From Rhodospirillales bacterium (GTDB lineage: Bacteria > Pseudomonadota > Alphaproteobacteria > UBA828), in contig JAPPNV010000403.1 in assembly GCA_028818565.1 (NCBI GenBank), positions 1 to 33,577 on the forward strand: 33,577 bases of DNA, read 5' to 3'. Below, piece by piece: positions 1 through 33,577 of this stretch. The translations under genes were made by a program, and so were the position numbers. Each line of letters begins with the position of its first letter. Position 1 is the first letter of the stretch. The notes under the pieces were generated by a model that saw nothing but the letters and a program-made list of their open reading frames with translations, ran no database searches and was not told the origin of the DNA.

Positions 1-1195
1 GGACGATGTCGCGCTGGGCGTGGCTGCCGCCGAAAGCCTGCGCCCGGTAGCGCACCGGCATCAGCAGGTCCACCGCCTCGCCATAGTGCCCGGCGCCGAA
101 GGCGCGGATTGCACGCACGATGGGGAGCCCCACATCGCGGGTCATGCGCGCGTTGGTGCCCTGTCCTTCGGCTACCGCTGCCGCCGCGCTCTCCAACGCC
201 TCCGCCGCCTCGTCGCGGCCCGTGGCGACGTAGGCCATCATCGCGTGCATGTCGTTGAACGCGTAGAAGCCGTGTTCGGCAGGATTCGCCTCGTAGGTCG
301 CGGCCAGCTTCTCGTAGCGATCGCCGGTATCGATCCCGCGCAGGCGGAGGCGCCAGAGCAGCGCGGCGGCGTCCAGCATCTCGAGCTGGATTTCCGAGGG
401 CTCGGGCCGAAGCGCCGCGTCGTAGATTTCGAGCACGCGGTCGAAGCGATCGTTGTCGAGATTGAAGAGGGAGACGTGCCACCAGTTGTGGAAGGCGAAG
501 CCGTTGTCGTCCTGCGCCCAGTGGGCCTGGCGCCCTTCCATGAAGGCGATGCCTTCCTCCTGCCGCGCCTGCATCTCCATGATGTGGCAGAGCGCATGCT
601 GCGCCCAGCAATCGTCCGGCTCCAGGTCGATGGCCTGCCGGCCGGCGTCCTCCGCCGCGCCGTAGTCCCCGCATTCCTCCAGTCCGAATGCGGCCATGCC
701 GAGCAGGAAGCCGTATCCGGGGTCGTCTCCGGTGTAGGCCGGGAGCGCGCGGGCGACGCGGCCCCGCAGATTGTCCCGGTTGCCGAGGAAGAAGTCGGAG
801 AGATGGCCGACCTGGAGCGCCACAACGTCGCGAGGCTCGTCGGCAACGATGCGCTCGAGCCGCGCCGACATCCCGTCCCAATCGCCGGCAGCCCAATCCG
901 CGATTGCCGCGATATGGGCCCGTTCGCGCTCCGTGGCCCTATCCGCGAGCGCGTCGAGGCAGTCGAGCATCGTCTCGACGTCGGGGAGTACGCTCTTCTC
1001 CCAGAGCATGGTGTGCATCTCGGCACGGAAGATATGCCCCGCCACGAAGTCCGGGTCATCCGCCAGCGCCCGGTCGATGGTCTCGACCGCATCGCCCCGG
1101 TAGCACTGGAACTGGCGTATCGCCGCTTCCAGAATCTCCAGGCTCTTGGGGTTCGTCGCCGATGTCGGCACGCCGCGCGCGTCACTCAGGGCCAC
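1..1195 (-). CDS. TTC38-family tetratricopeptide repeat protein (3' end outside window)
   Basis: The minus-strand frame is open from a GTG at 1195 to the left edge, giving about 398 codons with no stop, so the C-terminus is missing. The translation contains helical TPR-like stretches such as YRGDAVETIDRALADDPDF and ALCHIMEMQARQEEGIAFME. The conserved FHNWWHVSLFNLD segment is typical of tetratricopeptide repeat protein 38 relatives in Proteobacteria. The family is normally about 430-470 residues, so most of the gene is here. No ATG lies between the upstream in-frame TAG and the GTG, and AGAGGAC about 8 bases upstream could serve as the ribosome site. It lies 94 bases downstream of an MFS gene on the same strand and may be cotranscribed with it. 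Family members are probably scaffolds; no catalytic residue is recognisable and the function is unknown. Confidence 0.85.
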   Translation of the reverse strand, partial: MALSDARGVPTSATNPKSLEILEAAIRQFQCYRGDAVETIDRALADDPDFVAGHIFRAEMHTMLWEKSVLPDVETMLDCLDALADRATERERAHIAAIADWAAGDWDGMSARLERIVADEPRDVVALQVGHLSDFFLGNRDNLRGRVARALPAYTGDDPGYGFLLGMAAFGLEECGDYGAAEDAGRQAIDLEPDDCWAQHALCHIMEMQARQEEGIAFMEGRQAHWAQDDNGFAFHNWWHVSLFNLDNDRFDRVLEIYDAALRPEPSEIQLEMLDAAALLWRLRLRGIDTGDRYEKLAATYEANPAEHGFYAFNDMHAMMAYVATGRDEAAEALESAAAAVAEGQGTNARMTRDVGLPIVRAIRAFGAGHYGEAVDLLMPVRYRAQAFGGSHAQRDIV

Positions 1196-1289
1196 AGGAT
1201 CTGTCCTCTTCGTCGTCGAGAGCCGCTCAGGCGAAGCAAGCCAGCAATTGGACTATCAGTCCAGCCGTTTCAGGCCGATGGGGGGGCCG

Positions 1290-2522
1290 TCATGCGGTTC
1301 TCGCGCGCCACGAGAGACTCGCGGCCAGCGCGGCGGCGACGGCGAGCGCAGCTGCGGCCAACAGGGACGGCACCAGATATCCGCCGAGCGCATCGAAGAG
1401 CACGCCGGCGAGCGTCGGCCCCACCATTTGCCCCAGCCCCCAGGCCGCGGTCATCAGCGCCAGATTACGGCGCGGGTCGCCGCCCGCCCGGTGGCGGGCC
1501 TCGATCAGACCGATCGCCGTCAACCCCACGAAGGTTCCGCCGAGCAGCCCGGTCGCGAGCAGGATCGACCAGATGCCGCCGCCCAGCACGCTCAGCGCGA
1601 CGCCCACCGCCTCGATCAGACAGCCGACCGCGAAGGCGCGCTCGTTGCCCCAGCGCCGCCCGGCCCAGCCCCAAAGCGCCACGGAGGGCGCCGCCGTCAG
1701 CCCGACGCAGAGCCATACGAAGTGCTCAGCCGGCTGAAGCACGGGATCGGCGCGCACCATGTCGGAGACGAAGGTGGCGGTGATGACGTAGCCGAAGCCG
1801 ACCAGGCCATAGGCGGTGATCAGCCGGCCGAGGCCGTTGCCCCCCTTGCCGGCCCCGGTGTCCGGAGTGGCCGGCGCAGGCGCCCGCGGCCTTGGCAGCA
1901 GCAGCGCGACCGGAACCGAGAGGGCGAGGCATAGTGCGCCGCAGAAGAACCACGGGCTTTGCCAGTCGCCGTCTCCGGTTGCGGCTGCCGGAACCGCCAG
2001 GGACGAGATCGCGATGCCGCTCCCCACGCCGGCATACATGACGGCCGCCCAGCCATCCCGGCCTGCGGCAGCGAGCCGATCCATCACCAGGGAGGACGCA
2101 AGCACCATCACCAGCGCACCGGCTGCGCCGCCCACGAAGCGCAGGAACAGGAACACGCCCAGGCTCGTCGTGAACGTCATGGCGCCGGTGCTGAGCCCGC
2201 TCACCGCAAGTGCGCCCAGCAGCCAGAAGCGTGCATCGCCCGGCGCCGCCCGCCACGCGGCCGCCAGCGCGCCCAGCAGATAGCCGAGGTAATTGGCCGA
2301 GGCGATCAGGCCCGCTTCCGACTTGCCGAGGTCCAGGCCGGCGGTCATGTAGGGCAGGATCGGCGTGTAGGCGAAGCGTCCGATGCCGATGCCGACCGCC
2401 AGCGAAAGGAGGCCTGCAAGCGCCAGCAAGGCCGGATGACGATGACGGCCCAGCTCGGTCACGAGACCCGCTTCCGGGTTCGGCGACCGCGCATTCGCCG
2501 TGGCCCGTTGGGCGCGATCCAT
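1290..2522 (-). CDS. YbfB/YjiJ-family MFS transporter
   Basis: This 410-residue protein is very hydrophobic, with about 12 membrane segments. The first helix carries the hallmark AVGIGIGRFAYTPILPYM, which is characteristic of the YbfB/YjiJ (DUF1228) branch of the major facilitator superfamily. It is followed by ASANYLGYLLGALAA, another conserved stretch of this branch. The family comprises inner-membrane proton-coupled carriers of mostly unknown substrate, presumed exporters. The ATG at 2522 has no clear Shine-Dalgarno. A GTG at 2462 (reading VTELGRHRHP) preceded by a GGAAGCGG-like tract is a plausible alternative start just before the first helix. It is divergent from the SnoaL-like gene, with an 86-base shared promoter region (2523-2608) in which I see no clear operator. 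Confidence 0.86.
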   Translation of the reverse strand: MDRAQRATANARSPNPEAGLVTELGRHRHPALLALAGLLSLAVGIGIGRFAYTPILPYMTAGLDLGKSEAGLIASANYLGYLLGALAAAWRAAPGDARFWLLGALAVSGLSTGAMTFTTSLGVFLFLRFVGGAAGALVMVLASSLVMDRLAAAGRDGWAAVMYAGVGSGIAISSLAVPAAATGDGDWQSPWFFCGALCLALSVPVALLLPRPRAPAPATPDTGAGKGGNGLGRLITAYGLVGFGYVITATFVSDMVRADPVLQPAEHFVWLCVGLTAAPSVALWGWAGRRWGNERAFAVGCLIEAVGVALSVLGGGIWSILLATGLLGGTFVGLTAIGLIEARHRAGGDPRRNLALMTAAWGLGQMVGPTLAGVLFDALGGYLVPSLLAAAALAVAAALAASLSWRARTA

Positions 2523-2608
2523 CGCAAAGAGGCATGCGGGGTGCTAAGACACATACGAGACCGCCCGGGTGCGGGATTCCACGCTCCCGTGACTAAGGAG
2601 CAATGCCG

Positions 2609-3004
2609 ATGTCTGCAAGAAGCGTCGTGGAGGGTTTCCTGAGCCAGCTCGCGGGCGGAGACGCCGCCGCCATCGTGGCCATGTTCACCGACGACGCGGT
2701 GATCGACATGCCGGGCGGCGACGACCTGCCCTGGGCCGGGCGCTGGCAGGGCCGGGCTGCGATGGAGGACTACTTTCAGGTCATGCCGGCAGCGCTTGCC
2801 ATGCACGAGCACGTCATCAACGCCTGGGTCGTCGACGGCGACACCGTCTCCGTCAACGGCGAGGAGGCCGGCTCGTCCAAGATCAGCGGCAAGCACTACC
2901 GCGCGAAGTGGTGCTGGGTTTTCACCGTGCGGGACGGCAGGATCGCTGTCTGGGACGCCTACGAGGACACGCAAGCGCTCTCCGCCTGCGGCCCCTGGCG
3001 CTAG
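2609..3004 (+). CDS. SnoaL/NTF2-like nuclear transport factor 2 family protein
   Basis: A 131-residue protein beginning MSARSVVEGFLSQL. The N-terminal helix, then AAIVAMFTDDAVIDMPGG and later GKHYRAKWCWVFTVRDGRIAVWDAYED, match the cone-shaped alpha+beta fold of SnoaL-like / ketosteroid-isomerase-like proteins. These bind small hydrophobic ligands or catalyse isomerase, hydrolase or cyclase chemistry. TAAGGAG at 2594-2600 sits 8 bases before the ATG at 2609. The in-frame ATG at 2603 would be only 2 bases away, so 2609 is chosen. The next gene starts 12 bases after the stop and is probably cotranscribed, so the protein may act on the solute moved by that carrier. That link is inference and the substrate is unknown. 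Confidence 0.8.
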   Translation: MSARSVVEGFLSQLAGGDAAAIVAMFTDDAVIDMPGGDDLPWAGRWQGRAAMEDYFQVMPAALAMHEHVINAWVVDGDTVSVNGEEAGSSKISGKHYRAKWCWVFTVRDGRIAVWDAYEDTQALSACGPWR

Positions 3005-3016
3005 GCGAGGAACCAG

Positions 3017-4276
3017 TTGACAGGCGCGGATGAAGCCGGGGCGGGCAGCGCAGCGAAGGACGGCGCGGCGGGTACCCGCGTGGTCCGGACCCGGTGGGGC
3101 GTCGTCTCTGTCGTAATCTTTGCGAGCGTCATCGTCGGCTACGCGGTCGGCAAGGTGCCGCCAACCATCGGGCTGGTCTCCGACGAGTTCGGTCTCGACA
3201 AGGTGACCGCCGGCTGGCTCGCCTCCATCTTCTTCGCCTACGGCGCGGGCTTAGGCGTGCTGACGGGGATGACCGGCGCGCGCATCGGCGCTCGCGCGCT
3301 CCTGCTGACGGGTGTTCTCGTTCTCGTCCTGAGCGGTATCGCCGGCGCGCTCGCGACCAGCGCCGCCATGCTGCTCGCGGTCCGCGTCTTCGAGGGGATC
3401 AGCTTCGCCGCCATGGTGACCGCAGCACCCAAGATCACCGTCGACGTCTCGCGGCCCGAGGACCGGAACCTCACGCTCGGTATCTGGAGCGGTTACATGC
3501 CGGGCGGGATGGCGCTTGCCATGATCGTGGCGCCCTTTCTCGCCGAACCGCTGGGCTGGCGCAGCCTTTGGTGGCTCATGGCCGGCGTGTCGTTGATTGC
3601 GACGGTGCTCGCGGTGGTCGGCATGTCGCGCCGTCGCTGGCCCGAGCAGCCGCGACCTGACCCGGACGCGGGCTTCGACTGGGCCGGCGTGCGGGCGACG
3701 CTGCCGGTCGGCGCACTCTGGCTCTACGGCGGCGCCTTCCTGCTCTTCACGATCCAATGGTTCGCGATCGCGGCATGGCTGCCGACCTTCCTGATCGAGA
3801 CCCAAGGCCGCGGGCCCATGGGCGCCGCGCTCTTCTCGGCGCTCGTGGTGGGCATGAACGTCACCGGCAACCTGATCGGCGGCTGGCTGATGCATCACGG
3901 GGTGCCGCGCTTCGCTCTGGTGGGGGCGGCGAACGTCATCATGGGCGTCACTGGCCTGTTGATCCTCGCGGGCTTCGTGCCGGACGATGCCAAGATTCCG
4001 CTCGCGATCGTCTTCAGTGGCGGCAGCGGCATCCTGCCTGCGGCTGCGTACGCCGGTGCTGCCGCGCACGTGCCGAAGCCCGAGCTCGGGGCCATGGCCA
4101 ACGGCTTCATGGCCCAGGGGGCGGCGATCGGCATGCTGCTGGGGCCGCCGCTGATGGCCGTGGTGGTCGGCGGCCTCGGCAGCTGGGAGGCCGCCTGGTG
4201 GTGCATGCTGATCTGCCCGGCAATCGGCCTCGCCATCACCACCGGCCTGTTCGGGATCGAACGCCGCAGGCCATGA
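3017..4276 (+). CDS. MFS transporter (CynX/NimT-like)
   Basis: This 419-residue carrier has about 12 hydrophobic segments after a short charged N-terminus. Helix 1 reads VVSVVIFASVIVGYAVGKVPP. The stretch SDEFGLDKVTAGWLASIFFAYGAGLGVLTGM is the usual MFS helix 1-2 region, followed by an Arg-containing loop (TGARIGARA). Length and layout fit the CynX/NimT/NarK-like side of the superfamily, inner-membrane solute transport. The start is a TTG at 3017 preceded by GCGAGGA at 3005-3011, 12 bases after the SnoaL-like stop, so the two form a small operon. Substrate is unknown. The gene is followed by two GC-rich hairpins. Confidence 0.84.
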   Translation: MTGADEAGAGSAAKDGAAGTRVVRTRWGVVSVVIFASVIVGYAVGKVPPTIGLVSDEFGLDKVTAGWLASIFFAYGAGLGVLTGMTGARIGARALLLTGVLVLVLSGIAGALATSAAMLLAVRVFEGISFAAMVTAAPKITVDVSRPEDRNLTLGIWSGYMPGGMALAMIVAPFLAEPLGWRSLWWLMAGVSLIATVLAVVGMSRRRWPEQPRPDPDAGFDWAGVRATLPVGALWLYGGAFLLFTIQWFAIAAWLPTFLIETQGRGPMGAALFSALVVGMNVTGNLIGGWLMHHGVPRFALVGAANVIMGVTGLLILAGFVPDDAKIPLAIVFSGGSGILPAAAYAGAAAHVPKPELGAMANGFMAQGAAIGMLLGPPLMAVVVGGLGSWEAAWWCMLICPAIGLAITTGLFGIERRRP

Positions 4277-4300
4277 CCCTGGCGATGGCTCCGGGATAGA

Positions 4301-4325
4301 GCGCGTCCGGTTTTGACGGACGCGC
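4301..4325. terminator. GC-rich hairpin downstream of the MFS gene
   Basis: A perfect 9-bp stem (GCGCGTCCG / CGGACGCGC) with loop GTTTTGA begins 24 bases after the MFS stop codon. There is no T tract, so it may stabilise the 3' end or act as a weak terminator. The DNA from here to 4440 is GC-rich, contains further short palindromic GC runs, and has no gene I can support. Confidence 0.4.
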
Positions 4326-22772: not shown

Positions 22773-24032
22773 ATGGCCCCGCTTGCATTGAGCAGAGACG
22801 ACGAGCATGGCGAAACGCGGGACTTGAGCAGGCCGAGGCAACTCTTGACCGCGATCTTCTGCGGGTTCGCCGCGTTGCTGCCCATCGTCTGCGTCGTGGC
22901 GCCCAAGGGCACCGTGGTGCTTCTGCTGCTCGCGGCGCTCCTCGCCATCCCGACCTACTGGTGGGTGAACAGGCGAATGCCGGTTCCCGATTTGAGGATC
23001 GCGATCGCCCTCACCCTTTTCGTTCTCTGGTGCGCAATCGCCTCAGCCTGGAGTGCTGATGCCACGCGCTCAATTGTGCTGGTGCTCCGCATCGGCGTGA
23101 TTTTCGCGGCCGGCATGGCTTTGTTCCCTATCGCGGCCGCATTGGACGACGCGGCGCGCGCGCGTGTCGGCCGATGGCTGATCGGCGGCTTCGTGCTGGC
23201 GCTCGTCCTCGTGAGCGCGGAGATCGCACTCGGCTATCCCCTGCTTCGCTTGTTCGAGGCAGCCGAGGCCGGCAAAAAGCTCGTCTGGTTCAATCGCAGC
23301 GCCGTCGCATTGGCGCTGATTGTCTGGCCGGTGACAGGCCTGCTCTGGGCAAGAGGCCTCGGCTGGAAAGTACTGGCTATCCCTGGGTTGCTGGGGATCG
23401 CCTCGGTTTTCCTGGAAAGTGCGGCGGCGACGCACGGACTTGTCGTGGGCCTAGCCGCCGCGTTGTTGGTTCTCTGTCATCGCAAGGCGGGCTTCCTCGT
23501 TACGACAGCGGCTGGTGCGATGGCATTCGTCGGAATGCCGTTTGCAGCATTGGAAATGCACAACCAGGGATGGCACGGGGCGGACTGGCTGCCAGCATCG
23601 GCCCAGCACCGCGTCGAGATATGGAACTTTTCCGTCCATCGTATCGCCGAGAAATCCTTGCTCGGATGGGGCTTCGACGGCTCCCGCCACATGGGAATGC
23701 TGTACCCGGATCCGAGTGACACCGGTCGCACCGTTGCGGCCTTGCACCCCCATAGCGTGCCGCTGCAAGTCATGCTCGAGCTCGGCACCGTCGGCGCCGT
23801 CATGGCGCTCGCCCTCCTGTGGCTCATCGCGAGGCGTCTGGACGGGGTATCCGGCCGGACACGGGTGTTCGGGCAGGCTCTTTTCGTCGCCGCCTTGGCC
23901 ATTGGCTCAGTCGCCCACGGCGCCTGGCAAAACTGGTGGCTCGCCCTTGTTATCTCGGTCGCCCTTCTGGTGCCTCTCACCGCAGCGCCGGCGTCAACTG
24001 GCAATGACCCATTGAATGGACTGCCACCATGA
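22773..24032 (+). CDS. O-antigen ligase/polymerase-like membrane protein (Wzy_C family)
   Basis: A 419-residue protein with about 11-12 hydrophobic segments and one large periplasmic loop (about residues 265-335). The loop contains HRVEIWNFSVHRIAEKSLLGWGFDG and LHPHSVPLQVMLELG, the His-x-His region typical of WaaL/Wzy_C proteins. These ligate or polymerise undecaprenyl-linked glycans in the periplasm. GAGG lies about 7 bases before the ATG at 22773. Together with the GT9 gene it suggests LPS assembly. Whether it is ligase or polymerase cannot be told. It is the last ordinary chromosomal gene before AT-rich accessory DNA. Confidence 0.86.
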   Translation: MAPLALSRDDEHGETRDLSRPRQLLTAIFCGFAALLPIVCVVAPKGTVVLLLLAALLAIPTYWWVNRRMPVPDLRIAIALTLFVLWCAIASAWSADATRSIVLVLRIGVIFAAGMALFPIAAALDDAARARVGRWLIGGFVLALVLVSAEIALGYPLLRLFEAAEAGKKLVWFNRSAVALALIVWPVTGLLWARGLGWKVLAIPGLLGIASVFLESAAATHGLVVGLAAALLVLCHRKAGFLVTTAAGAMAFVGMPFAALEMHNQGWHGADWLPASAQHRVEIWNFSVHRIAEKSLLGWGFDGSRHMGMLYPDPSDTGRTVAALHPHSVPLQVMLELGTVGAVMALALLWLIARRLDGVSGRTRVFGQALFVAALAIGSVAHGAWQNWWLALVISVALLVPLTAAPASTGNDPLNGLPP

Positions 24033-24055
24033 GGGCGAGTGCGCTCACTCATACG

Positions 24056-24352
24056 AGCCGGGGAGCCTTCGAATCGATCGTTCGAGTTTTCAAGCTAATA
24101 ATCTTCAATTGTTTCGGAAAGTAATGGATCAATTTCTTCGTTTTTCGATCATCACACACCAATTGTGTTCCAATTTATTCAGAGATTTCACTCGAAGTAT
24201 AACGATGATATCCGGGTATAGTCTGATTCAATAGTTCATATTTATCTCTGTGTAATGTTATGTTATTGTCAGAATTATGACTGGATCCGGTTCCAATTAT
24301 ATGTGTTGCTATCGTCACGTTTTTTGTTGTGATGTCCTTGAGCGTCTTGTTA
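24056..24352. other. AT-rich gene-free tract at the edge of the accessory region
   Basis: Base composition falls abruptly from the GC-rich background to A/T-dominated sequence (for example TTTATTCAGAGATTT and ATTTATCTCTGTGTAATG). It returns to GC-rich at about 24353. No gene with plausible codon use is visible; the only frame through it would be a short unrelated peptide. It could be an attachment region, horizontally acquired remnant DNA, or a nucleoid-protein-silenced promoter tract. Confidence 0.6.
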
Positions 24353-24873
24353 AAGAGACCGCTAAGGCGAACCCGCGCTCGCCCGGGTGGCTCCAGCGGG
24401 AAAGATCGCGGTGAATGTCGCGCACACCGCCAGGAGTCAGGGCTGGTGCGCCGGATGCCGAGCGGCGCGCGGCGCCGTTACAACGCTTCCCGGAATATGA
24501 TCGTTACACGAGGGCGTGGCACCTGCGCGCGCGCGCTCAAGTGCGACGAAAGGAGACCATCCCCGCCATTGTCGATGCTATTCGTGGACGGTAATGAAGA
24601 GGCCTCGTCGGGAGGCCTTGGCCAGCCACCTGCCCGCATCACCACCTGCCCAAAGGCAAACGATATATCGCGCCTGACGGCGATAACTGTCTGTGTTTTC
24701 GTTGATTTTTGAGGGGTGTGATGGTCGCGCGCTTTATGTGGCAGCGCGTGACGATGATGACGGGCGGAGTCCTGTGATTTCGGCGCGTTACGCGGTGAAG
24801 CCGCGGCGGCCCGTCGTGATGACGGCACCCGGGTCGCCCTTCGGTGCCTCCTCGTTCCCGGGACGTGACGCCC
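24353..24873. other. Gene-poor leader before the tandem integrases
   Basis: No supported gene. The tract contains the left 24-bp inverted repeat (24595-24618). A short frame just after it reads ...LPKGKRYIAPDGDNCLCFR before a TGA at 24703; it may be a gene remnant, but it is not recognisable. A second composition dip lies at 24655-24715. Confidence 0.5.
24595..24618. repeat. Left copy of a perfect 24-bp inverted repeat
   Basis: It begins TGAAGAGGCCTCGTC and ends GGAGGCCT. The exact reverse complement is at 27853-27876. Each copy is itself a hairpin (AGGCCT repeated around CGTCGGG). The pair brackets both integrase genes. Confidence 0.85.
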
Positions 24874-26079
24874 ATGCCGCGTCGTAGCACGCTCGTGCTG
24901 AGCGGGCGGGAGGTGGACCGGCTGGCGGTCGCGGGCAGGGACCGGATCTTCTGGGACCGCGAGCTGGCCGGCTTCGGGGTCCGGGTCTACCCCTCGGGGC
25001 GGAAGGTCTACGTGGTCCAGAGCCGGGCGCGGGGCGGACCGAAGCGCGTCACGCTGGGCACCCACGGCGAGCTCACCGCGACGCAGGCCAGGCTCCGCGC
25101 CGGCCAGGTCATCGACCGCATCAAGGGGGGCGGAGACCCCATACCGCCCCCGGCCCGGGCCGGCGCCACCATCGCCGACCTCGCCGAGCGCTACCTGAGC
25201 GCCCATGTGGCCCAGAACTGCAACGCCCATACCGCCGGCATCTACCGGGGCTCGCTGGAGAACCACATCCTGCCGGCGCTCGGCATGATGCCGCTCGCCA
25301 TGGTCGAGACCGCCCATGTGGCGGCGCTGCACTACCGGCTCCGGGAGACACCCCGTGCCGCCAACCGCGCGCTCTCGGTGCTGTCGAAGATGTTCTCGCT
25401 GGCGGCTGCGTGGGGGCTCGTGCCCGACGGCGCCAACCCCTGCCGGGGCGTGCGCAAGTACAAGGAGAAGAAGCGCGAGCGCTTTCTCACCCGGGACGAG
25501 TACCGCAGGCTGGGCATGGCCCTCGCTCAGGCGGAAGCGGAGGCCGAGGCCGGCGTGGAGGGCGCGGTCTCGCCCTACGCCGTCGCGGCGCTGCGGCTGC
25601 TCATGCTCACCGGCTGCCGGCTCAACGAGATCCTCACCTTGCGCTGGGACGATATCGACCGCACCGCCGGCGAGTTTCGCCTGCGCGACGGCAAGACCGG
25701 CGCACGCATGGTGCCGCTGACGCCCACGGCGGAGAGGGTGCTGGCGGGGATCGCGCGCCTGCCCCACAACCCCTGGGTCATCGTCGGCAAGAAACCGGGC
25801 ACGCACCTCGCCACCATCACAGCAGACTGGTATCGGCTGCGGTCGCGAGCGGGCCTCGACGACGTGCGCATCCACGACCTCCGTCACTCCTACGCGTCCC
25901 GCGCGCTCGCCGCCGGCGAGAGCCTCAGCATGATCGGCAAGCTGCTGGGCCACGCCGACATCCAGAGCACCGCCCGCTACGCCCATCTCGCGCGCGAGAC
26001 CGAGCGCATCTCCGCCGCCAGGGTCGGCGGCAGCATCGGCGCCGACATCGGCACAGTTAAGGAAGGTCCCACCTCATGA
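24874..26079 (+). CDS. Tyrosine recombinase/integrase 1
   Basis: A 401-residue site-specific recombinase. The N-terminal arm-type DNA-binding domain is at about residues 1-85 (FWDRELAGFGVRVYPSGRKVY, DUF4102-like). A core-binding domain follows at about 95-190, then the catalytic domain. Catalytic residues are all present: R249 (LTGCRLNEIL), K274 (RDGKTGA), H334 and R337 (HDLRHSY), H360 (LLGHADIQSTARY) and Y369. It should cut and rejoin DNA through a 3'-phosphotyrosine intermediate. The ATG at 24874 is preferred over a GTG at 24844. It is the upstream half of a paralogous pair, 19 bases before integrase 2. It ends with SAARVGGSIGADIG, a tail shared with its neighbour. Confidence 0.95.
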   Translation: MPRRSTLVLSGREVDRLAVAGRDRIFWDRELAGFGVRVYPSGRKVYVVQSRARGGPKRVTLGTHGELTATQARLRAGQVIDRIKGGGDPIPPPARAGATIADLAERYLSAHVAQNCNAHTAGIYRGSLENHILPALGMMPLAMVETAHVAALHYRLRETPRAANRALSVLSKMFSLAAAWGLVPDGANPCRGVRKYKEKKRERFLTRDEYRRLGMALAQAEAEAEAGVEGAVSPYAVAALRLLMLTGCRLNEILTLRWDDIDRTAGEFRLRDGKTGARMVPLTPTAERVLAGIARLPHNPWVIVGKKPGTHLATITADWYRLRSRAGLDDVRIHDLRHSYASRALAAGESLSMIGKLLGHADIQSTARYAHLARETERISAARVGGSIGADIGTVKEGPTS

Positions 26080-26102
26080 ACAAGGACGACCCCTCCCCAT
26101 GA
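26076..26102 (+). CDS. Candidate relay micro-ORF between the two integrases
   Basis: ATG at 26076 overlaps the integrase 1 stop (ATGA). The frame reads MNKDDPSP, and its TGA (26100-26102) overlaps the integrase 2 ATG at 26099 (again ATGA). GGAAGG (26061-26066) lies 9 bases before its start. It could pass terminating ribosomes to integrase 2 rather than make a useful peptide. The arrangement could be chance. Confidence 0.3.
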   Translation: MNKDDPSP

Positions 26103-27508
26103 ACATGTCACTTCTCTCACAGGGAACCATTACGGACCGCACCGTGGCGGCGCTCTCTGCCGAGAGCGACACCGTGGTCTGGGACCGCGCGCTCACCGGC
26201 TTCGGCGTCCGGGTCTATCCCTCCGGCGCCAGGGTCTACGTGGTCCAGGCGCGGGGGCCGGAAGGCACGAAGCGCATCACCGTGGGCCGGCACGGGGTGA
26301 TCGGGGCCACGGAAGCCCGCAGGCGTGCCGCCCTGATCATCGCGCGTATCAGGGCGGGCGAGGCGCCCGTTCCGGAGGTTCAGAAGCCCGAGAGCGTCAC
26401 CGTCGCCACCCTCGCCGAGCGCTACCTGCGCGAGCACGTGGCGGTGCGCTGCAAGCCCACCACGGCAACCCAGTACCGGCTTGCCATCGAGCGCTACATC
26501 GTGCCCGCCCTCGGCACCCGTCCGGTCTCATCCCTCGGCCGTTCCCAGGTCGCCGAGCTGCAGCACTCGCTGAGCGACCGGCCGGCCATGGCCAACCTGG
26601 TGATCGCGACCTTGTCCAGGATGATCGAGCAGGGCATGGCCTGGGGCGTGGCGGGGGAGATCAGCAACCCCTGCCGCTCCGCCCCGAAGTATCGCGCCCG
26701 GCGGCGCGAGCGCTTCCTCACCGACGCGGAGTTCCGCCGCCTGGGATCGACCCTTGACGAGCTGGAGGCGACCGGGCGGCTCTCGCCACACGCGGCGGCG
26801 GCGCTGCGCCTGCTGATGCTCACCGGCTGCCGGCGTAACGAGATCCTGACGCTGCGCTGGGAGGACGTGCATCTGCACACGCAGGAGCTGCGTCTTCGCG
26901 ACTCCAAGACCGGCCCGCGCACGGTCTCGCTCTCGCCCGAGGCGGCGCAGGTTCTGGCGTCGATCGAGCGCCTGCCCGGCAATCCCTGGGTGATCCCCGG
27001 CGCCCGGCCCGGCGCCCGGCTTTCCAGCCTGTTCGAGCCCTGGCGCAAAGTGCGCGCCCGCGCGGGCCTCGACGACGTGCGCATCCACGACCTGCGTCAC
27101 TCCTACGCGTCGCGCGCGCTGGCCTTGGGCGAGAGCCTGCCGGTGATCGCCAAGCTCCTCGGCCACGCCCAGATCCAGACCACCGCGCGCTACACACACC
27201 TCACCCGCGACGCCGTCAAGGACGCAGCCACTCGAGTCGCCGAGGGGATTGCAGAAGACATACTTATAGGTCACGCCCCGAACCGCGGCCCTGATTTGCG
27301 TGGGCCAAACGGAGCTCCGCGCATCGGTGTCGGGTGCAATGCGCGGGGTGCCCCCGCGGTGCACGGCTCCATGGTTAAGGAAAGGATGAGGGCATCGGCT
27401 GCCAGGGTTGCAGCCGAAATCGGGGAGGACATTCTGCCGCCGTGGCAGCGCGGGAAAGACCTGTCGCCGACTCGGTCCGAACCCGCCCCAACCGCCCACG
27501 CCGCATGA
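26099..27508 (+). CDS. Tyrosine recombinase/integrase 2 with extended, duplicated tail
   Basis: A 469-residue paralogue of integrase 1. Arm-binding domain: VVWDRALTGFGVRVYPSGARV. Catalytic residues: R245 (TGCRRNEIL), K270 (RDSKTGP), H330 and R333 (HDLRHSY), H356 (LLGHAQIQTTARY) and Y365. After the tyrosine the normal tail VKDAATRVAEGIAEDIL (373-389) is followed by about 35 residues of unlike sequence. A second, homologous tail follows (MVKERMRASAARVAAEIGEDIL, residues 425-446, split here only by its two halves), then a Pro-rich end. So it is about 65-80 residues longer than expected. It may start at 26099 or at ATG 26105. It is probably cotranscribed with integrase 1; the partners may act as a heteromeric recombinase. 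Confidence 0.94.
   Translation: MNMSLLSQGTITDRTVAALSAESDTVVWDRALTGFGVRVYPSGARVYVVQARGPEGTKRITVGRHGVIGATEARRRAALIIARIRAGEAPVPEVQKPESVTVATLAERYLREHVAVRCKPTTATQYRLAIERYIVPALGTRPVSSLGRSQVAELQHSLSDRPAMANLVIATLSRMIEQGMAWGVAGEISNPCRSAPKYRARRRERFLTDAEFRRLGSTLDELEATGRLSPHAAAALRLLMLTGCRRNEILTLRWEDVHLHTQELRLRDSKTGPRTVSLSPEAAQVLASIERLPGNPWVIPGARPGARLSSLFEPWRKVRARAGLDDVRIHDLRHSYASRALALGESLPVIAKLLGHAQIQTTARYTHLTRDAVKDAATRVAEGIAEDILIGHAPNRGPDLRGPNGAPRIGVGCNARGAPAVHGSMVKERMRASAARVAAEIGEDILPPWQRGKDLSPTRSEPAPTAHAA
27371..27436 (+). pseudogene. Probable tail remnant of a third integrase, fused in frame to integrase 2
   Basis: The 22 codons from ATG 27371 encode a copy of the post-tyrosine integrase tail (VKE...SAARVAAEIGEDIL), matching residues 373-389 of the same protein and the end of integrase 1. 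The short run GTTAAGGAA here also occurs in the end of integrase 1 (26056-26064). A deletion that removed most of a third tandem integrase would leave this footprint. Internal duplication of the tail is the alternative. Confidence 0.38.
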
Positions 27509-28213
27509 TGAGGTGAGAGGCTCCTCAAGCAAGAACGTTCACTCAATAATTGTGTGCCGCGCGCGAATCGGCACTTGCATTCGCCGCTCGCATGTGGCGT
27601 GCTTGCATGGTGGCACATCGGATGACATGAGGGACGTCGTGACGGTGTGCAGCACAGCGGCGGTGACGGGGAGGATAGTCCTGGAGTGTCGACGCGGTTT
27701 ACATGGGTTGACGGCACGGCGGATAGCCGGTATTGGCTTGAGTGCGTCGCCCGCTGCCTCGGGGTTCGCCCCAGGCATGTTGCAAGACATTGCGATGACT
27801 ATGGACACCGCGCGACTCGTCTTGGTAAACTCGACGCTGCAGTCCACAAACGAGGCCTCCCGACGAGGCCTCTTCAGAATGAGGAGAGACTAGGAGCGGG
27901 ACAGCGATAGGAGATTTCATACACCCTCCGAGTCTTCTACTAACCCACTGATATTACATTATATATTTTCTGTGGTCGGGTCTCTGTTCCCGGCCTTTGT
28001 TGTCCCCGAATTTGACCGCCGTCATCACTCCGGAAGCGATTGAATTCCAGCCCCAGCGTAGCCCTGCGTAGCCGATTCGGCGAAACGCTACACCCGCCCG
28101 ACGAGGGTGCCCGCGCTGACGCAATCAAGACCCGTGGTGTGTGAGCCTGGCGCTGGCGGGCGCGCTGGTCCGGGCGGCGAGTCGCCGGGAGGCACGCCGG
28201 GAGCGCTTGGATT
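27509..28213. other. Gene-poor stretch between the integrases and higBA
   Basis: I can support no protein gene here. The frames present are short and do not resemble known families. The tract holds the right inverted repeat/terminator-like hairpin (27853-27876), an AT-rich patch at about 27940-27985 (ACATTATATATTTTC) and tandem GCGTAGCC words near 28059-28075. No tRNA clover-leaf was seen. Confidence 0.5.
27853..27876. repeat. Right copy of the 24-bp inverted repeat (terminator-like)
   Basis: It is the exact reverse complement of 24595-24618. Read on the plus strand it forms GAGGCCTC-CCGAC-GAGGCCTC followed by TTC (using the base at 27852), the shape of an intrinsic terminator for the integrase transcript, 344 bases beyond the stop. 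Whether its identity to the left copy reflects element ends or reused terminators is open. Confidence 0.8.
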
Positions 28214-28243
28214 GGAGACGCCCGGCACCGGCCGGTCGTCTCC
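28214..28243. terminator. Strong hairpin just upstream of the higBA promoter
   Basis: GGAGACG (28214-28220) pairs with CGTCTCC (28237-28243), and inside it CCGGC (28222-28226) pairs with GCCGG (28231-28235) around ACCG. The two stems are separated by one mismatch. There is no T tract. It ends 5 bases before the promoter and may insulate the toxin-antitoxin genes from upstream transcription. Confidence 0.45.
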
Positions 28244-28248
28244 TACGC

Positions 28249-28276
28249 TTGACGTACATCGTCAACGGGCTACCTT
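28249..28276 (+). promoter_or_regulatory. higBA promoter with overlapping operator
   Basis: TTGACG (28249-28254), 16 bases and TACCTT (28271-28276) form a sigma-70-like promoter. The same TTGACG is one arm of a perfect inverted repeat with CGTCAA (28260-28265), spacer TACAT. The dyad covers the -35 and spacer. This suits autorepression by the HigA/HigBA complex, as known for this family. Confidence 0.55.
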
Positions 28277-28284
28277 GTTCCCCG

Positions 28285-28572
28285 ATGATCCTCAGCTACA
28301 GGGACAGCAAGACCGAGAGATTCGCCGGCGGCCGAATGGTCCGGGACTTCCAGGGCTTCGAGCAGCAAGCGGCCAGACGGCTCTCGATCCTCAACGCCGC
28401 GCCGTCCCTCGACACGCTGCGCAACTTGCCCAGCAATCGGCTTGAGGCCCTCGGAGGGGATCGGAAGGGCCAGTACTCCATTCGGGTCAACAGGCAGTGG
28501 CGTATCTGTTTCGAGTGGCCGGAGGGTCAGCCGGGACCGAGCAACATCGAGATCGTGGATTACCATTCGTGA
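28285..28572 (+). CDS. higB: HigB-type toxin of a type II toxin-antitoxin system
   Basis: A 95-residue RelE/HigB-superfamily mRNA interferase (plasmid maintenance killer protein). Family hallmarks: ILSYRDSKTERFAGGRMV, the conserved NRLEALGGDRKGQYSIRVN and QWRICFEWPEG, and the terminal IEIVDYH. These toxins cleave mRNA on translating ribosomes. The ATG at 28285 fits the family N-terminus. With the promoter at 28249-28276 the leader would be only a few bases, so translation may be leaderless, and there is no Shine-Dalgarno. Toxin precedes antitoxin by 7 bases, the normal order for higBA. Confidence 0.95.
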   Translation: MILSYRDSKTERFAGGRMVRDFQGFEQQAARRLSILNAAPSLDTLRNLPSNRLEALGGDRKGQYSIRVNRQWRICFEWPEGQPGPSNIEIVDYHS

Positions 28573-28579
28573 AGGGAGA

Positions 28580-28891
28580 ATGATCGTGCTGAGACGCGCC
28601 ATCCATCCGGGTCGTATACTGAAGGAGGAGCTGGCAGGAATCGGCGTCACGCCGACGGAGCTCGCGCGCCAGATCGACGTGCCCGCGAACCGCGTGAGCC
28701 AGATCATCAACGCCAGGCGTTCGATCACCGGCGACACGGCGCTCCGCCTCGGTCACTGGTTCGGCGTTGAGCCGGAGTTCTGGCTCAACCTGCAAGCGCA
28801 CTTCGATCTGGTCTGCGCCGACCGGGCGAGGGGCGATACGATCAGGCTTCTGCCGACGAGAACCGATCTCGCCTCCGGCAGCGCTGTCTGA
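28580..28891 (+). CDS. higA: HigA-type antitoxin (HTH)
   Basis: A 103-residue XRE-family helix-turn-helix protein. Family features: AIHPGRILKEELAGIGVTP, HTH at about residues 24-45 (TELARQIDVPANRVSQIIN), then RRSITGDTALRLGHWFGVEP and FWLNLQAHFDL, as in HigA/VapI. It neutralises HigB and represses the operon, probably at the dyad at 28249-28265. The ATG at 28580 is very close to GAAGGGA; a GTG at 28586 would have better spacing. The last 15 residues are not conserved. Confidence 0.95.
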   Translation: MIVLRRAIHPGRILKEELAGIGVTPTELARQIDVPANRVSQIINARRSITGDTALRLGHWFGVEPEFWLNLQAHFDLVCADRARGDTIRLLPTRTDLASGSAV

Positions 28892-29474: not shown

Positions 29475-32400
29475 CTACATGCTGATCCCCCGGCTGCGGC
29501 GCATGTGCCTTCCGTGTTTGCGGTCGCGCTGCTCTGCCTTTTCGCGCAGCTCCTTGAGTTTCTCGGGATCGTCGAGGATGTGGGCGAATCCTTTCCGGCT
29601 CTCGCTCGGGTCCAGGGGCTTGGCGGGCGGCTTGTCGAGCGTGTGAGCGAATCCTTGTTGCTCTTCTTCGCCCTTTCGCTCGCGCCGCGTTTCAGACTTG
29701 CGGCGCTCTTCGAGGATGTGAGCGAACCCCTGCTCCTGCTTCGGCGTCGGCTCGCGCCGGCGCTGTGATACTTCCGGCTTTGCGGCGCGTTCGCGGTTCT
29801 CGTTGAGCCGGTTGCGCAACTGCTCCACGGTGAGTTGTGCACGAGACCTGCCGATGGTGACCGCGTCGAGGTAGGCGCCGTACCTGTCGTCGTTGGCGAG
29901 GACGGCCTCGCCGGTGGCGGCCAGCATCTCGGCGGCGTCGCGCCACTGGGGCCAGGCGTCGAGACGGGCAACGGGAAGGCCGCGTTCCCCGGCATGGCGT
30001 TCGAGGGCCCTGTACGCCTCGACATGCCGCTCCGCTGCCGCGAGATAGTCTTCGGCGGTCTCTCGGGCAACGGTCTCGTCGTCGTGGTACGCGAGGAGTT
30101 CGTCGATCACGCCGCGTGCGCGGTCGGACAAATCTGGATGCTCGGCGAGCGCGCGCACTCGGCGGATCAGCGCGTCGTACCCTTCCACCAGCAGCATCGG
30201 AAGGTCCGGTTCCTGGGAGCGTGCGACGAGATCGTTCCAGTCCTGTTGCAGCTCCCTGTAGAGCGTCCTCCAGTCGGGCAGAGCCTCGCGTTCCAGGCCG
30301 GGCGCGACCGCATCCGAAGTCTGTGGCGGCAGGGACTCGTGCGGTGCGGGCTCGGCGGCAGGAGCAGTGATCCCGGCAGCGACCGCCTCGACCATCCCCT
30401 CCTCTTCGCGCACGACCTCCTGGCGCTCCGCGTCTTGGCGCTCCGCGTCCTGCCGCGCCCGGTGGGCGGCCCTGGCCGACACGGACCGCAGATACTTGCC
30501 AGCGCGCGCGTGCTGTCTGCGGAACTCCTCGATTTCACCCTGGCCGATACCGGCGCGCTCGGCCAGCAGGCGCTCGAACACCTGCGGACGGCGGCGGAAG
30601 GATGCGGCCTGCTTCATCAGCGCACCGTGGCGGTCGAGGGTCTCGCGGAAGGCCGGGCTGAGCGCCACCGCGTCGCCCTCGGCGCGCGCGCGCCGGCGAA
30701 GATCGTCCCACGCGGCCATGACCTCGGTGCGCTCCGCTGCGAACGCATCTACGGCGGTACCGTGGCGCCAGCCGTTGACGGCGTGACGGATTTCCTGGGC
30801 AATGCGCACGATCGCGTTGTCGTTGGCGGCAGCGACGGCCGCGGCTGCTTCCCCCTGCTCTTCGCCGGGACCGCCACGCATAGCACTCGCCAGCCGGGTC
30901 GCGCCGTTCCCAGCGCCGGCCCGCCCAAGCTGCGCGCGGCGCTGAGCGCCAGGCTGCGCGCGGAGCTGAGCTCCTTCGCTCGCATCCCGCCATGCGCCGT
31001 CGGCGATGTAGTCGAGCGCCGCCTCCTTGGGCCGGGAGCGCGACCAGCGCTCGGCCAGGTACGCCCGTACCTCGCTGTCCAGCACCGGCCGCTCCGCCTC
31101 GTCCTCGGGGAGGCTCTCGGCGATGTCGAAGACGATGGGAGAGCGGTTGACGTAGACGTCGATCCCCTCGCGGTGGCGAGTAGCAGCGGGATAGACGGTC
31201 TCGCGCGAGGGCCGGTCGTCGATCAGCAGGAACGCGCGATCCACCGTCAGCCCCTGGGCGGACGCGATGGTCATTGCATAGCCGTAGTCGATGCGGATGT
31301 TGTCGTGGTAGTCGCGGATCTCGTCGTGACGGAATTGCACGCACCTGCCGTCGTCGGTCCGCGCCGTGATGTGGACCGAAGGCTCAGCCTTGGACTCGTC
31401 CCACGACCTTCCGGGCTCATCCGCCATGACGTCCTTGCGCCCACCGGCCAGCCGGTTACGGGCCTTGCGCGAGATCGCTACTCCTTCCGCCTTTCGCACC
31501 TCGATGTCCTCGACGGTGACGACGGTGCCGTTGAAGAGCTGCTTCTGCCACTGTGTGGCGCCGATGCGGAGCCGGTCGCCGACGGCGATCTCAAGCGGCT
31601 CGGTCACCCGCCCGTCAAGGTCGCGGCTGACCTCGATCACCGCGCGCTTGATGTCGGTCCTTTCTCCGAGGACTCGCTCCCGCATGAGCCAGGAGAGCGC
31701 CCGCGCTTCTGCCTTCGTGCGTGCCAGCACCACGGCGGATTTGTGGGGCTCGGCGTTGGCGAGCCGCGCCCAGTCGTTGACCAGACCGGTCAGCGTTTTC
31801 TCTTCGTCGTAATGAAGATGCAGCCGGCCCCTGAGCTGCCACGCCTCGATGGCCTTCTCCGCTTCGCCGTCCCTGAGCGCCTCCGAGACCGCCACCTGCC
31901 ACGGCGTGAACAGGGGCTTCTTCTCCATCGCCTCGTAGTCGGCGAGGATTCTTTTTTGCTCTTGCTGGTTGGTCAGTGCGGCTGCAAAGCGCGCCTGCTC
32001 CGGCGTCTCCTTGTGGACATGGACCAGCACGTCCTCCAGGTCCGCCTTCTGGCGCCTGATGCGGTCGACGCGCACGCTGCCGGCGACGTCACGGATCAGC
32101 CGCAACCCCGGCCCCGCCTCCACCGGCTGCTGCTGGCGGGTGTCGCCGGCGAACACCACCTTGGCCCCGTGGCGCTCGCAGAGTTGCAGGATGTGGTGCG
32201 CCTGGCGGGTCGACAGCATCCCCGCCTCGTCCACCACGATCAGGGTGTCGCGGCCGATCTCGAGCTGCCCCTTGGCCGCGAGCTTGAGCAGCTTGTCCAC
32301 GCAGTAGGGACGCGCGTCGCAGTCGTCGCCGAGCGCCACGGCAGTCCGCCATGCGACGGCGGTGGGCACGATCTCGTAGCCGTGCTCCCTGTGAAGGTCG

Positions 32401-33577
32401 GTGATGGGCCTGAGCGTGGTGGTCTTGCCCGAGCCCGCCGCCCCCTCGATCACGGCCACACGGCCGCCCATCGCGGTGGCATGGCGAATGGCCATGGATT
32501 GCTCCTGGCTCAGCGGATAACCATCAGCCAAGAGCGCCTCCACCTTCTCCTTCACCGCCTGCTCCGGCAGGGCATGTCCTGTGTCGGACGCCATGGCCTC
32601 GGCCATGTCCTTCACGGCCTGTTCGAGGCCGAGGTTGTGGCGGGTGGAATAGACTTCGGTGTGGGCCATGCCGGCCAGCGACTCTGCCGTCGGCTTCTTC
32701 GGCTCCAGCCGCTCGATCTCGGGGTTGCGGCGCAGCCGCTCGATGGCGGTCGTCAGCGCTTGCGCGCCGATCAGACCAGCCGCCGCATTCGCCGCCGCCT
32801 CCACCATGTCCGGGCGGCGGAACACGGCCTCTTCCCGGGCCAGGTGGGCGGGAAGATCGTCGAGCCGGGCGGTCAGCTCCCGGATCTTTTCTCGCCCGAT
32901 CTCGACCTTGCGCCCGGTCACGGACCGGATCAGCTCTTCGCGCTCGGCGAAGCCCTGCGCTTCCTCACGCCAGCGCCTATGACGTATCTCGGGATCGTTG
33001 TCGTGGGACTTGCTGGCCCTGGTCAGCTTGTTGACGCCGGCCAGGCGCGAGGCGTTGCCGCGCGAGGGAATGCCAAGCTCCCCCGCCTTGGCGACGATCG
33101 TCTTCCGACGCTTCGACCAGAAGACCAACAAATCCTCCGGCATGCCCTCGATCCGGGTGAAGGCGGCATCGGGACCGTACTGCTCCATGGTCACGCCGAG
33201 ACGCTCGCGGAGGTTCCAGGCCAGTGCATTGCGGTAGACCGCGCCCGCCGCCTTGGCCCAGCTGTAGGCCGGGTACTGGTGCATGGCCCGCCACTTGCCG
33301 TCGTCACGGGTGCGGGCCGCGTTGAAAATGACGCAGTGGGTATGGAGCTGCGGGTCGTTCTCCCGGCTGGTGCCGTGCTGGAACATCGCCACCGGGATAT
33401 CGGCAGGCAGGACCTTTATCCGCCCCTCCCGGTCTCGGATCCGGGTATAGGAGCAGTGACGGAGCACCGTTTCTTCCAGCGCCACTCGGGCCGCGTCGTT
33501 GTGCGCCTGCTCGATCTCACCGCGCAGCTCCGGATCGGCGATGGCCCAGAGCGCGGACACGCTCTTGTCGGCCGAGA
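29475..33577 (-). CDS. traA: MobF-type conjugative relaxase/helicase (TraA/TrwC-like), 5' end outside window
   Basis: About 1,366 residues are visible; the start lies beyond the right edge, since the frame is open to it (SADKSVSALWA, normally about 70-90 residues into TrwC). The relaxase HUH triad is present (FQHGTSRENDPQLHTHCVIFN area, with His at the QLHTHC pair and in FQHG). The missing N-terminus would hold the catalytic tyrosine(s). A RecD-like helicase follows: Walker A EGAAGSGKTTT (near 32420-32450), Walker B LIVVDEAGML (near 32215-32245) and DYGYAMTIASAQGLTVDRAFL. A long charged C-terminal third ends in a triple GFAH repeat. It nicks oriT and unwinds DNA for transfer. The internal GTG at 33560 is not the start. 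oriT is not visible. Confidence 0.93.
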   Translation of the reverse strand, partial: SADKSVSALWAIADPELRGEIEQAHNDAARVALEETVLRHCSYTRIRDREGRIKVLPADIPVAMFQHGTSRENDPQLHTHCVIFNAARTRDDGKWRAMHQYPAYSWAKAAGAVYRNALAWNLRERLGVTMEQYGPDAAFTRIEGMPEDLLVFWSKRRKTIVAKAGELGIPSRGNASRLAGVNKLTRASKSHDNDPEIRHRRWREEAQGFAEREELIRSVTGRKVEIGREKIRELTARLDDLPAHLAREEAVFRRPDMVEAAANAAAGLIGAQALTTAIERLRRNPEIERLEPKKPTAESLAGMAHTEVYSTRHNLGLEQAVKDMAEAMASDTGHALPEQAVKEKVEALLADGYPLSQEQSMAIRHATAMGGRVAVIEGAAGSGKTTTLRPITDLHREHGYEIVPTAVAWRTAVALGDDCDARPYCVDKLLKLAAKGQLEIGRDTLIVVDEAGMLSTRQAHHILQLCERHGAKVVFAGDTRQQQPVEAGPGLRLIRDVAGSVRVDRIRRQKADLEDVLVHVHKETPEQARFAAALTNQQEQKRILADYEAMEKKPLFTPWQVAVSEALRDGEAEKAIEAWQLRGRLHLHYDEEKTLTGLVNDWARLANAEPHKSAVVLARTKAEARALSWLMRERVLGERTDIKRAVIEVSRDLDGRVTEPLEIAVGDRLRIGATQWQKQLFNGTVVTVEDIEVRKAEGVAISRKARNRLAGGRKDVMADEPGRSWDESKAEPSVHITARTDDGRCVQFRHDEIRDYHDNIRIDYGYAMTIASAQGLTVDRAFLLIDDRPSRETVYPAATRHREGIDVYVNRSPIVFDIAESLPEDEAERPVLDSEVRAYLAERWSRSRPKEAALDYIADGAWRDASEGAQLRAQPGAQRRAQLGRAGAGNGATRLASAMRGGPGEEQGEAAAAVAAANDNAIVRIAQEIRHAVNGWRHGTAVDAFAAERTEVMAAWDDLRRRARAEGDAVALSPAFRETLDRHGALMKQAASFRRRPQVFERLLAERAGIGQGEIEEFRRQHARAGKYLRSVSARAAHRARQDAERQDAERQEVVREEEGMVEAVAAGITAPAAEPAPHESLPPQTSDAVAPGLEREALPDWRTLYRELQQDWNDLVARSQEPDLPMLLVEGYDALIRRVRALAEHPDLSDRARGVIDELLAYHDDETVARETAEDYLAAAERHVEAYRALERHAGERGLPVARLDAWPQWRDAAEMLAATGEAVLANDDRYGAYLDAVTIGRSRAQLTVEQLRNRLNENRERAAKPEVSQRRREPTPKQEQGFAHILEERRKSETRRERKGEEEQQGFAHTLDKPPAKPLDPSESRKGFAHILDDPEKLKELREKAEQRDRKHGRHMRRSRGISM
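29571..29729 (-). repeat. Three spaced repeats in the relaxase C-terminus (GFAH motif)
   Basis: The 21-bp units at 29571-29591, 29634-29654 and 29709-29729 are near-identical on the plus strand (GTCGAGGATGTGGGCGAATCC and variants). They encode (Q/K)GFAH(I/T)L(D/E). Spacings of 63 and 75 bases keep the frame. The linkers are rich in Lys, Arg and Glu. Confidence 0.8.

Follow-up and report, generated by a model that had tools for sequence, protein, structure and literature searches.

Paired P4-type integrases between perfect inverted repeats: a candidate recombination module for the leaders of surface lipoprotein genes in a Rhodospirillales bacterium

Switches that work by DNA inversion, elements with several recombinases and integrases of genomic islands are already known. 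Hin/fljBA and fimB-fimE/fimS are DNA inversion switches, and the integron platform combines a recombinase with an outward promoter and, just ahead of the variable genes, a palindromic recombination site. Recombinase-in-trio (RIT) elements are about 3,500 bp long, with an inverted repeat and an overlapping palindrome, and their open reading frames overlap by 4-8 bp (PMC3414803). Inversion switches are also described for CwpV and the flagella of C. difficile, for the invertible promoters of Bacteroides and for Vpma of Mycoplasma agalactiae (PMC5386303, PMC2784873, PMC4747536, PMC2268961).

The locus studied here is a unit with two recombinase genes, int1 and int2, in a stretch of 33,577 nucleotides (the window) from a draft Rhodospirillales genome. 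Its features are listed below. SLP stands for surface lipoprotein; L, G and C numbers are our handles for loci, genomes and contigs, and G000 is the genome of the window.

24314-24594 (no strand): left outer region B1, conserved in L068 and L064
24595-24618 (+): left recombination-site-like repeat (hairpin) beside int1, a perfect inverted copy of 27853-27876
24619-24873 (no strand): region separating the left repeat from int1, from flank alignment
24874-26079 (+): int1, tyrosine recombinase of 401 aa with an ATG start (PF00589, 3.6e-22; PF13356, 4.8e-10)
26099-27508 (+): int2, paralogous tyrosine recombinase of 469 aa (PF00589, 3.4e-22; PF13356, 4.8e-9)
27802-27831 (+): predicted outward sigma-70-like promoter, TGGACA-18-TAAACT with an extended TG at the -10 element, from a consensus scan and conserved with the SLP leader
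27853-27876 (-): right recombination-site-like repeat, equal to the leader hairpin GAGGCCTC-CCGAC-GAGGCCTC, then TTCA
27877-27890 (+): outer side of type A, GAATGAGGAGAG, equal to the Shine-Dalgarno stretch of the SLP gene in relatives
27974-27995 (+): intrinsic-terminator-like stem with a T-rich tail at the expected SLP position, from a terminator scan
28001-28095 (+): degenerate attachment-arm-like module (CCGTCATCACT...GCGTAG repeats...CGCTACAC)

The unit resembles RIT elements in its adjacent tyrosine recombinases, its inverted repeats overlapping a palindrome and its total length of about 3.3-3.5 kb. Unlike RIT elements, which have three genes, it has two, without overlap of the reading frames and with the P4-type domain Arm-DNA-bind_3; it also has an outward promoter and ends that are tied to the leader of one gene family. 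Membership in the RIT group was rejected, as the ritA, ritB, ritC trio is absent, the relatives have two genes per unit with extra genes coming from nested elements, and int1 ends at 26079 before int2 starts at 26099, leaving none of the 4-8 bp overlap. With inversion switches the unit shares a site-specific recombinase, surface proteins as targets and a promoter or expression site enclosed by short inverted repeats; it differs in that paired P4-type integrases lie inside the segment, that the target is a Slam-dependent lipoprotein operon and that inversion is a reaction we only infer. The P4-type island integrases of alphaproteobacteria (Ruegeria sp. TM1040 megaplasmid) belong to the same protein family, but they are single genes in the two annotated cases, whereas in the unit the pair is an obligate tandem with an inverted site at either end. 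As in the integron platform, a recombinase, an outward promoter and a palindromic site stand before variable genes; unlike there, the two recombinases are of another family and co-directional with the promoter, and what varies is an entire SLP-Slam operon. No array resembling attC was seen.

The two repeats match in inverted orientation at 24 of 24 positions, and 3234 bp separate the arms, in agreement with the spacing of about 3.2 kb in the original prediction. Each copy can fold into the predicted GC hairpin, with a GC-rich stem of 7-8 bp, and besides the two recombinases no convincing gene lies between them, again as predicted. The suggestion that the repeats are copies of one terminator sequence failed: they have no T-run, neither was called by the terminator scan, and the 24-mer is not dispersed. 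Searched with up to 3 mismatches, the 24-mer occurred twice in the whole of its own genome (4.14 Mb, 464 contigs), which argues against a widespread ordinary terminator. When up to 3 mismatches were allowed, the 19-bp hairpin core matched the window at 2 places, where dinucleotide shuffles gave 0.09 expected. The repeat hairpin matched no Rfam family at E values up to 1, and among viral contigs no relative was found. Around the other integrase pairs of the genus no perfect inverted repeats were found, and matches were at chance level, so that this subfamily alone has the form with inverted repeats. On its outer side the left repeat is of a second type, B (CTTCATTACCG, minus strand). The adjoining region B1 lies at the same locus in L068 (G015) and at a different locus in L064 (G017), and it probably belongs to the larger element. 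In relatives, the region equivalent to 24619-24873 separates int1 from a divergent SLP gene.

Int1 and Int2 are paralogous tyrosine recombinases, as had been predicted, and are 52% identical to each other. Both have the complete catalytic set, namely R (TGCR..E), K (D.KTG.R), H..R (HDLRH) and GH...Y (LGH.....T..Y). The domains Phage_integrase (PF00589) and Arm-DNA-bind_3 (PF13356) mark them as P4-type, and NCBIfam gave sub-threshold Xer-type matches only; a longer int1 with a GTG start at 24844 is possible. The family is strongly expanded: the genome has about 20 copies, complete or partial, many as tandem pairs, and most congeners also carry such pairs. A tree was built from 26 pairs together with two unpaired integrases of cultured bacteria. 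In it the first and the second genes of the pairs separated into two groups whose branching was mostly parallel, the exceptions being the distant pairs L057 and L058, indicating one old duplication followed by joint inheritance. The SLP-adjacent pairs (window, L064, L065, L069, L055, L073, L074 and L077) formed one clade in each half, with support of 0.999 for gene 1 and 0.947 for gene 2. On the int1 side, the flank was a divergent SLP gene in 11 of 15 cases (L055, L073, L074, L076, L077, L101, L102, L065u2, L066u2, L167 and L168), a count that is partly circular because L076, L101, L102, L066, L167 and L168 were assigned to the clade by similarity and flank, not by the tree. No divergent SLP gene was present on the int1 side of the inspected pairs outside the clade. 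On these sequence comparisons, one clade of integrase pairs appears to be specialised for SLP leaders. The cultured relatives are about 47% identical, the copy on the Ruegeria sp. TM1040 megaplasmid matching 96% of int1 at 47%, and both annotated ones (Ruegeria and Indioceanicola) are single integrase genes. The Ruegeria gene heads a block of genes that resembles an island, and the Indioceanicola gene lies on a conjugative plasmid. From the single genes, one of them heading such a block, the family's ancestral activity was probably integration and not inversion.

Other integrase pairs of the family occupy other places. A sister class interrupts other integrase genes at the codons for the catalytic-lysine motif, D-S-K-T-G (GACNNNAAGACNGGC). 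Left halves end at this site with a new pair next to it in L064 (about 8795), L065 (about 13646), L102 (about 3606) and L119 (about 147), and right halves, consisting of the int2 C-terminus, begin there in L056 (4777) and L079 (9724); in the window the site is intact at 26885-26935. Another class lies beside a PhoB-like gene (L054, 1-770, and L080, 6230-7401; L100, 7382-10501). The SLP-Slam operon of G014 is located by pho/pst genes, near the position of the PhoB-adjacent pairs, and the pho region is possibly an insertion hotspot. Contigs with close relatives of the unit were also binned as Chloroflexota and Gemmatimonadetes (L102, L119) and are probably mis-binned repeat contigs in sponge metagenomes.

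The genus is a small group of Rhodospirillales/Alphaproteobacteria MAGs (e.g., JAJDUK010000102, RHO3 and APA bins), whose sponge association is our reading of bin names and of one Spongia bin among the wider relatives. In the congeners, the right repeat is the 5′-leader hairpin of a large lipoprotein gene, in the order GAGGCCTC-loop-CGAGGCCTC-TTCAGAATGAGGAGAGCC-ATGAAGAAGACGAAGCTG. Among 22 genomes of the order, the hairpin with TTCA was restricted to this genus. The genes beside the site share a signal peptide, MKKTKLTRSL... (MKKTKLTRSLLAACSIVALSAVMYGC), and the first 26 residues of the SLPs have a mean identity of 76%, against 28% for residues 31-230. Several are followed by a gene for a Slam exporter (PF04575, E=1.5e-20). 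G014:C4, from a congener without this integrase subfamily, has a promoter-like stretch, the hairpin, a Shine-Dalgarno sequence, the lipoprotein gene and the Slam gene in this order, and no integrase was found within the 18 kb examined. In the window's own genome, a lipoprotein-Slam operon with the hairpin in its leader lies on G000:C57, a contig of 5.9 kb on which no integrase was found. The hairpins in SLP leaders, these two included, show that the repeat is an SLP leader element which serves as the boundary for integrase units.

How the SLP genes are arranged around the units was also compared. Every genome is a MAG draft, and the ends of many contigs fall within these repeats. In L065, two units enclose two convergent SLP-Slam operons, of which one lies on the promoter side and the other on the int1 side; their Slam genes are 80% identical and their SLP bodies unrelated. 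G015:C89 (L074), the clearest case, has an SLP start behind int1, the integrase pair, one outward promoter with the hairpin and a further SLP start, and the two starts differ at 2 of 201 positions. Both ends of this 5.4-kb contig are the same 141 SLP-gene bases, inverted, with the one promoter between them, which means that either two almost identical SLP genes enclose the unit or both connections occur together in the population. This fork (k=141) is suggestive, but the contig of the SLP body is absent from the bin, and it was not taken as proof of inversion. The end of G000:C13 (L165) and the start of G000:C128 (L166) carry two different SLP-Slam operons with exactly 55 bp in common upstream, at which both contigs stop, making an assembly-graph fork at the SLP leader. 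Two identical int1-side flanks would explain this fork equally well, and it was not counted as evidence of switching. In L056 (G000:C402), a large Calx-beta adhesin-like gene (89-4315) stands immediately ahead of an int2 fragment; the short contigs C185 and C172, which carry integrases, share 33-bp ends with this contig.

Aligning several insertions had been proposed as a check, and 18 sites from the window and its congeners were aligned on the core CGAGGCCTCTTCA. The core was invariant in 18/18 sites, the inner and outer flanks were reassorted there, and between several copies homology stopped exactly at the 24-mer. Units 1 and 2 of L065 showed 54% identity inside and 96% outside, on the SLP leader side. 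The right end of the window compared with L056 gave 77% inside and 61% outside, where shuffled sequence gives about 58-61%. More generally, on the promoter side the window, L067 and L065 unit 1 compared with L056, L078 and L079 gave 68-80% inside and 50-62% outside, the latter being the level of shuffled sequence. The int1 side was joined to an SLP leader in L065u2, L066u2, L101 and L102 and to other DNA in the window, L064, L068 and L118; the inner regions on this side have strongly diverged among themselves and have short motifs only in common. The promoter side was joined to an SLP leader in L065u1, L069 and, without integrases, G014, and to other DNA in L056, L078 and L079. Homology running smoothly through the repeats, named beforehand as an argument against a bounded unit, was found only at the orthologous loci, through the left repeat in L068 and the right one in L067, and on the left side of L064, as expected for inherited copies, and not elsewhere. 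Considered as the ends of a mobile unit, the 24-mers break homology in some copies, but the conserved region B1 and the SLP leaders continue beyond them.

The promoter, which the original prediction did not mention, is the sole sigma-70-like prediction in 24000-28600 (4.6 kb) and lies immediately inside the right repeat, directed outward through it. The scan gave 1 match against 0.8 expected in shuffles, and its weight rests on the alignment of relatives, where the consensus is conserved upstream of the SLP genes. Inverted repeats flank a segment with a predicted outward promoter, as in an inverton; the gene directly downstream is absent in the window and present in L065u1, L069 and the sister pair of G015:C89.

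We propose, with confidence that is about evenly balanced, that the unit is a self-encoded recombination module for SLP leaders, which joins or separates the promoter and SLP-Slam operons. Int1 and Int2 would act jointly on short sites centred on CGAGGCCTCTTCA, i.e., the SLP 5′-leader hairpin, and the 24-bp repeats would be two inverted copies of this site. The unit would carry the SLP promoter at its right end, directed through the right site, and recombination would connect it with, or disconnect it from, an SLP-Slam operon and so choose the SLP that is expressed, either by inversion of the unit or by inversion or exchange of SLP cassettes between neighbouring units. This proposal draws on the invariant core with mixed inner and outer flanks among the 18 sites, on the site-adjacent lipoprotein genes with a common signal peptide, variable bodies and a following Slam gene, and on the sole consensus promoter in 4.6 kb, conserved upstream of SLP genes. 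It also draws on the grouping of SLP-adjacent pairs in both halves of the tree, with 11 of 15 int1-side flanks being a divergent SLP gene, and on G015:C89, where an SLP start lies on both sides of a single outward promoter. What the site is, the exact breakpoints in it, where the promoter lies and how it is conserved, the neighbouring gene family and the joint inheritance of the pair are observed; we infer that the pair would catalyse recombination at the sites, that the reaction would be inversion and that expression would switch. Several points speak against the proposal. Both orientations at one locus were not found, and the orthologous loci in G000, G015 and G019 agree in orientation. Among the sites the hairpin differs in the length and sequence of its loop and, in part, of its second arm, as would suit an RNA hairpin no less than the core site of a recombinase. 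The probable ancestral role of the family in integration and the draft state of the genomes, with contigs ending in the repeats, also count against it. A bolder form of the proposal, in which an obligate heteromeric P4-type pair, an outward promoter and palindromic leader sites would exchange whole SLP-Slam cassettes in the manner of an integron or shufflon and so serve the sponge symbionts for antigen switching, seems rather doubtful to us.

The window copy itself probably is a relic or an idle unit, although both recombinase genes are intact. The Shine-Dalgarno stretch at 27877-27890 is kept, no SLP gene follows it, and the terminator-like stem and the arm-like module come next, from which this state is deduced; under the proposed mechanism the copy would have decayed, keeping promoter, hairpin and Shine-Dalgarno sequence, with a terminator after them, and losing the SLP gene. 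The module at 28001-28095 is common to G019:C39, G015:C18 and G015:C14 and resembles the int1-side flanks of sister integrase pairs. Further to the right lie a HigBA-like toxin-antitoxin pair (28225-28885; HigA by NCBIfam) and a MobF/Ti-type TraA relaxase (29475-33560), where the contig stops; these genes are possibly cargo of a larger integrative element running off the contig.

The main rival of the switch reading starts from such an element. The pair would serve as integrase for conjugative or mobilizable integrative elements that have the SLP leader as attachment site. The left repeat would be a junction of the attL type and the right one the leader of an SLP operon, either carried as cargo or lying next to the element, and the toxin-antitoxin and TraA genes would be cargo; any effect on SLP expression would be a by-product, or the element's own SLP operon would silence the resident one. 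We regard this as a real possibility, short of probable. HigA and the MobF/Ti-type TraA to the right speak for it, as do the island-like block headed by the single Ruegeria integrase, the Indioceanicola copy on a conjugative plasmid, the insertion of sister pairs into other defined targets, such as the KTG codons in integrase genes, and the GCGTAG-type, arm-site-like repeats between int1 and SLP in sister pairs. The int1-side junctions at SLP leaders look like attL, and G014 has an intact leader without integrases. However, insertion into one leader should leave a displaced promoter pointing inward, and among the compared loci no attR with a displaced promoter was found. The leader instead points outward in the window, L065u1, L069 and C89, where it follows int2 or stands at the unit's far end, and L069 retains the order int2, leader, hairpin although its integrases show no more than 60-74% identity.

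It is improbable, in our judgement, that the repeats are mere SLP leader hairpins, i.e., regulatory or stabilising RNA duplicated in inverted orientation together with SLP genes, with the integrases nearby by chance or acting elsewhere and with RecA-dependent recombination as the source of the mosaics. A hairpin with a variable loop does stand in SLP leaders without nearby integrases (G014:C4 and, on its 5.9-kb contig, G000:C57). Yet the breakpoints fall within a 13-bp core, at several junctions with unrelated flanks, which is too short for ordinary homologous recombination, and only one clade of integrase pairs shows the association. Lastly, the original idea of a transposon-like two-gene RIT variant or decayed trio with terminal inverted repeats is very improbable: tandem tyrosine recombinases and inverted repeats with an overlapping palindrome over 3.3 kb do recall PMC3414803, but two non-overlapping P4-type genes (Arm-DNA-bind_3) without remnant of a third form a pair that is old and stable in the tree of pairs, the outer sequences in relatives are SLP leaders and not random targets, and no empty target was found.

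To our knowledge, Slam-exported surface lipoproteins are not known to be controlled by DNA rearrangement. In the open-access literature, neither such control nor a paired P4-type integrase module tied to Slam-dependent SLPs was found. If the switch reading is true, an island-type integrase family would have been turned into a paired module for the leader of one gene family, and sponge symbionts known here from metagenome bins alone would vary their Slam-exported lipoproteins by recombinase. This would give a testable route by which symbionts vary the surface that is met by sponge cells and phages.
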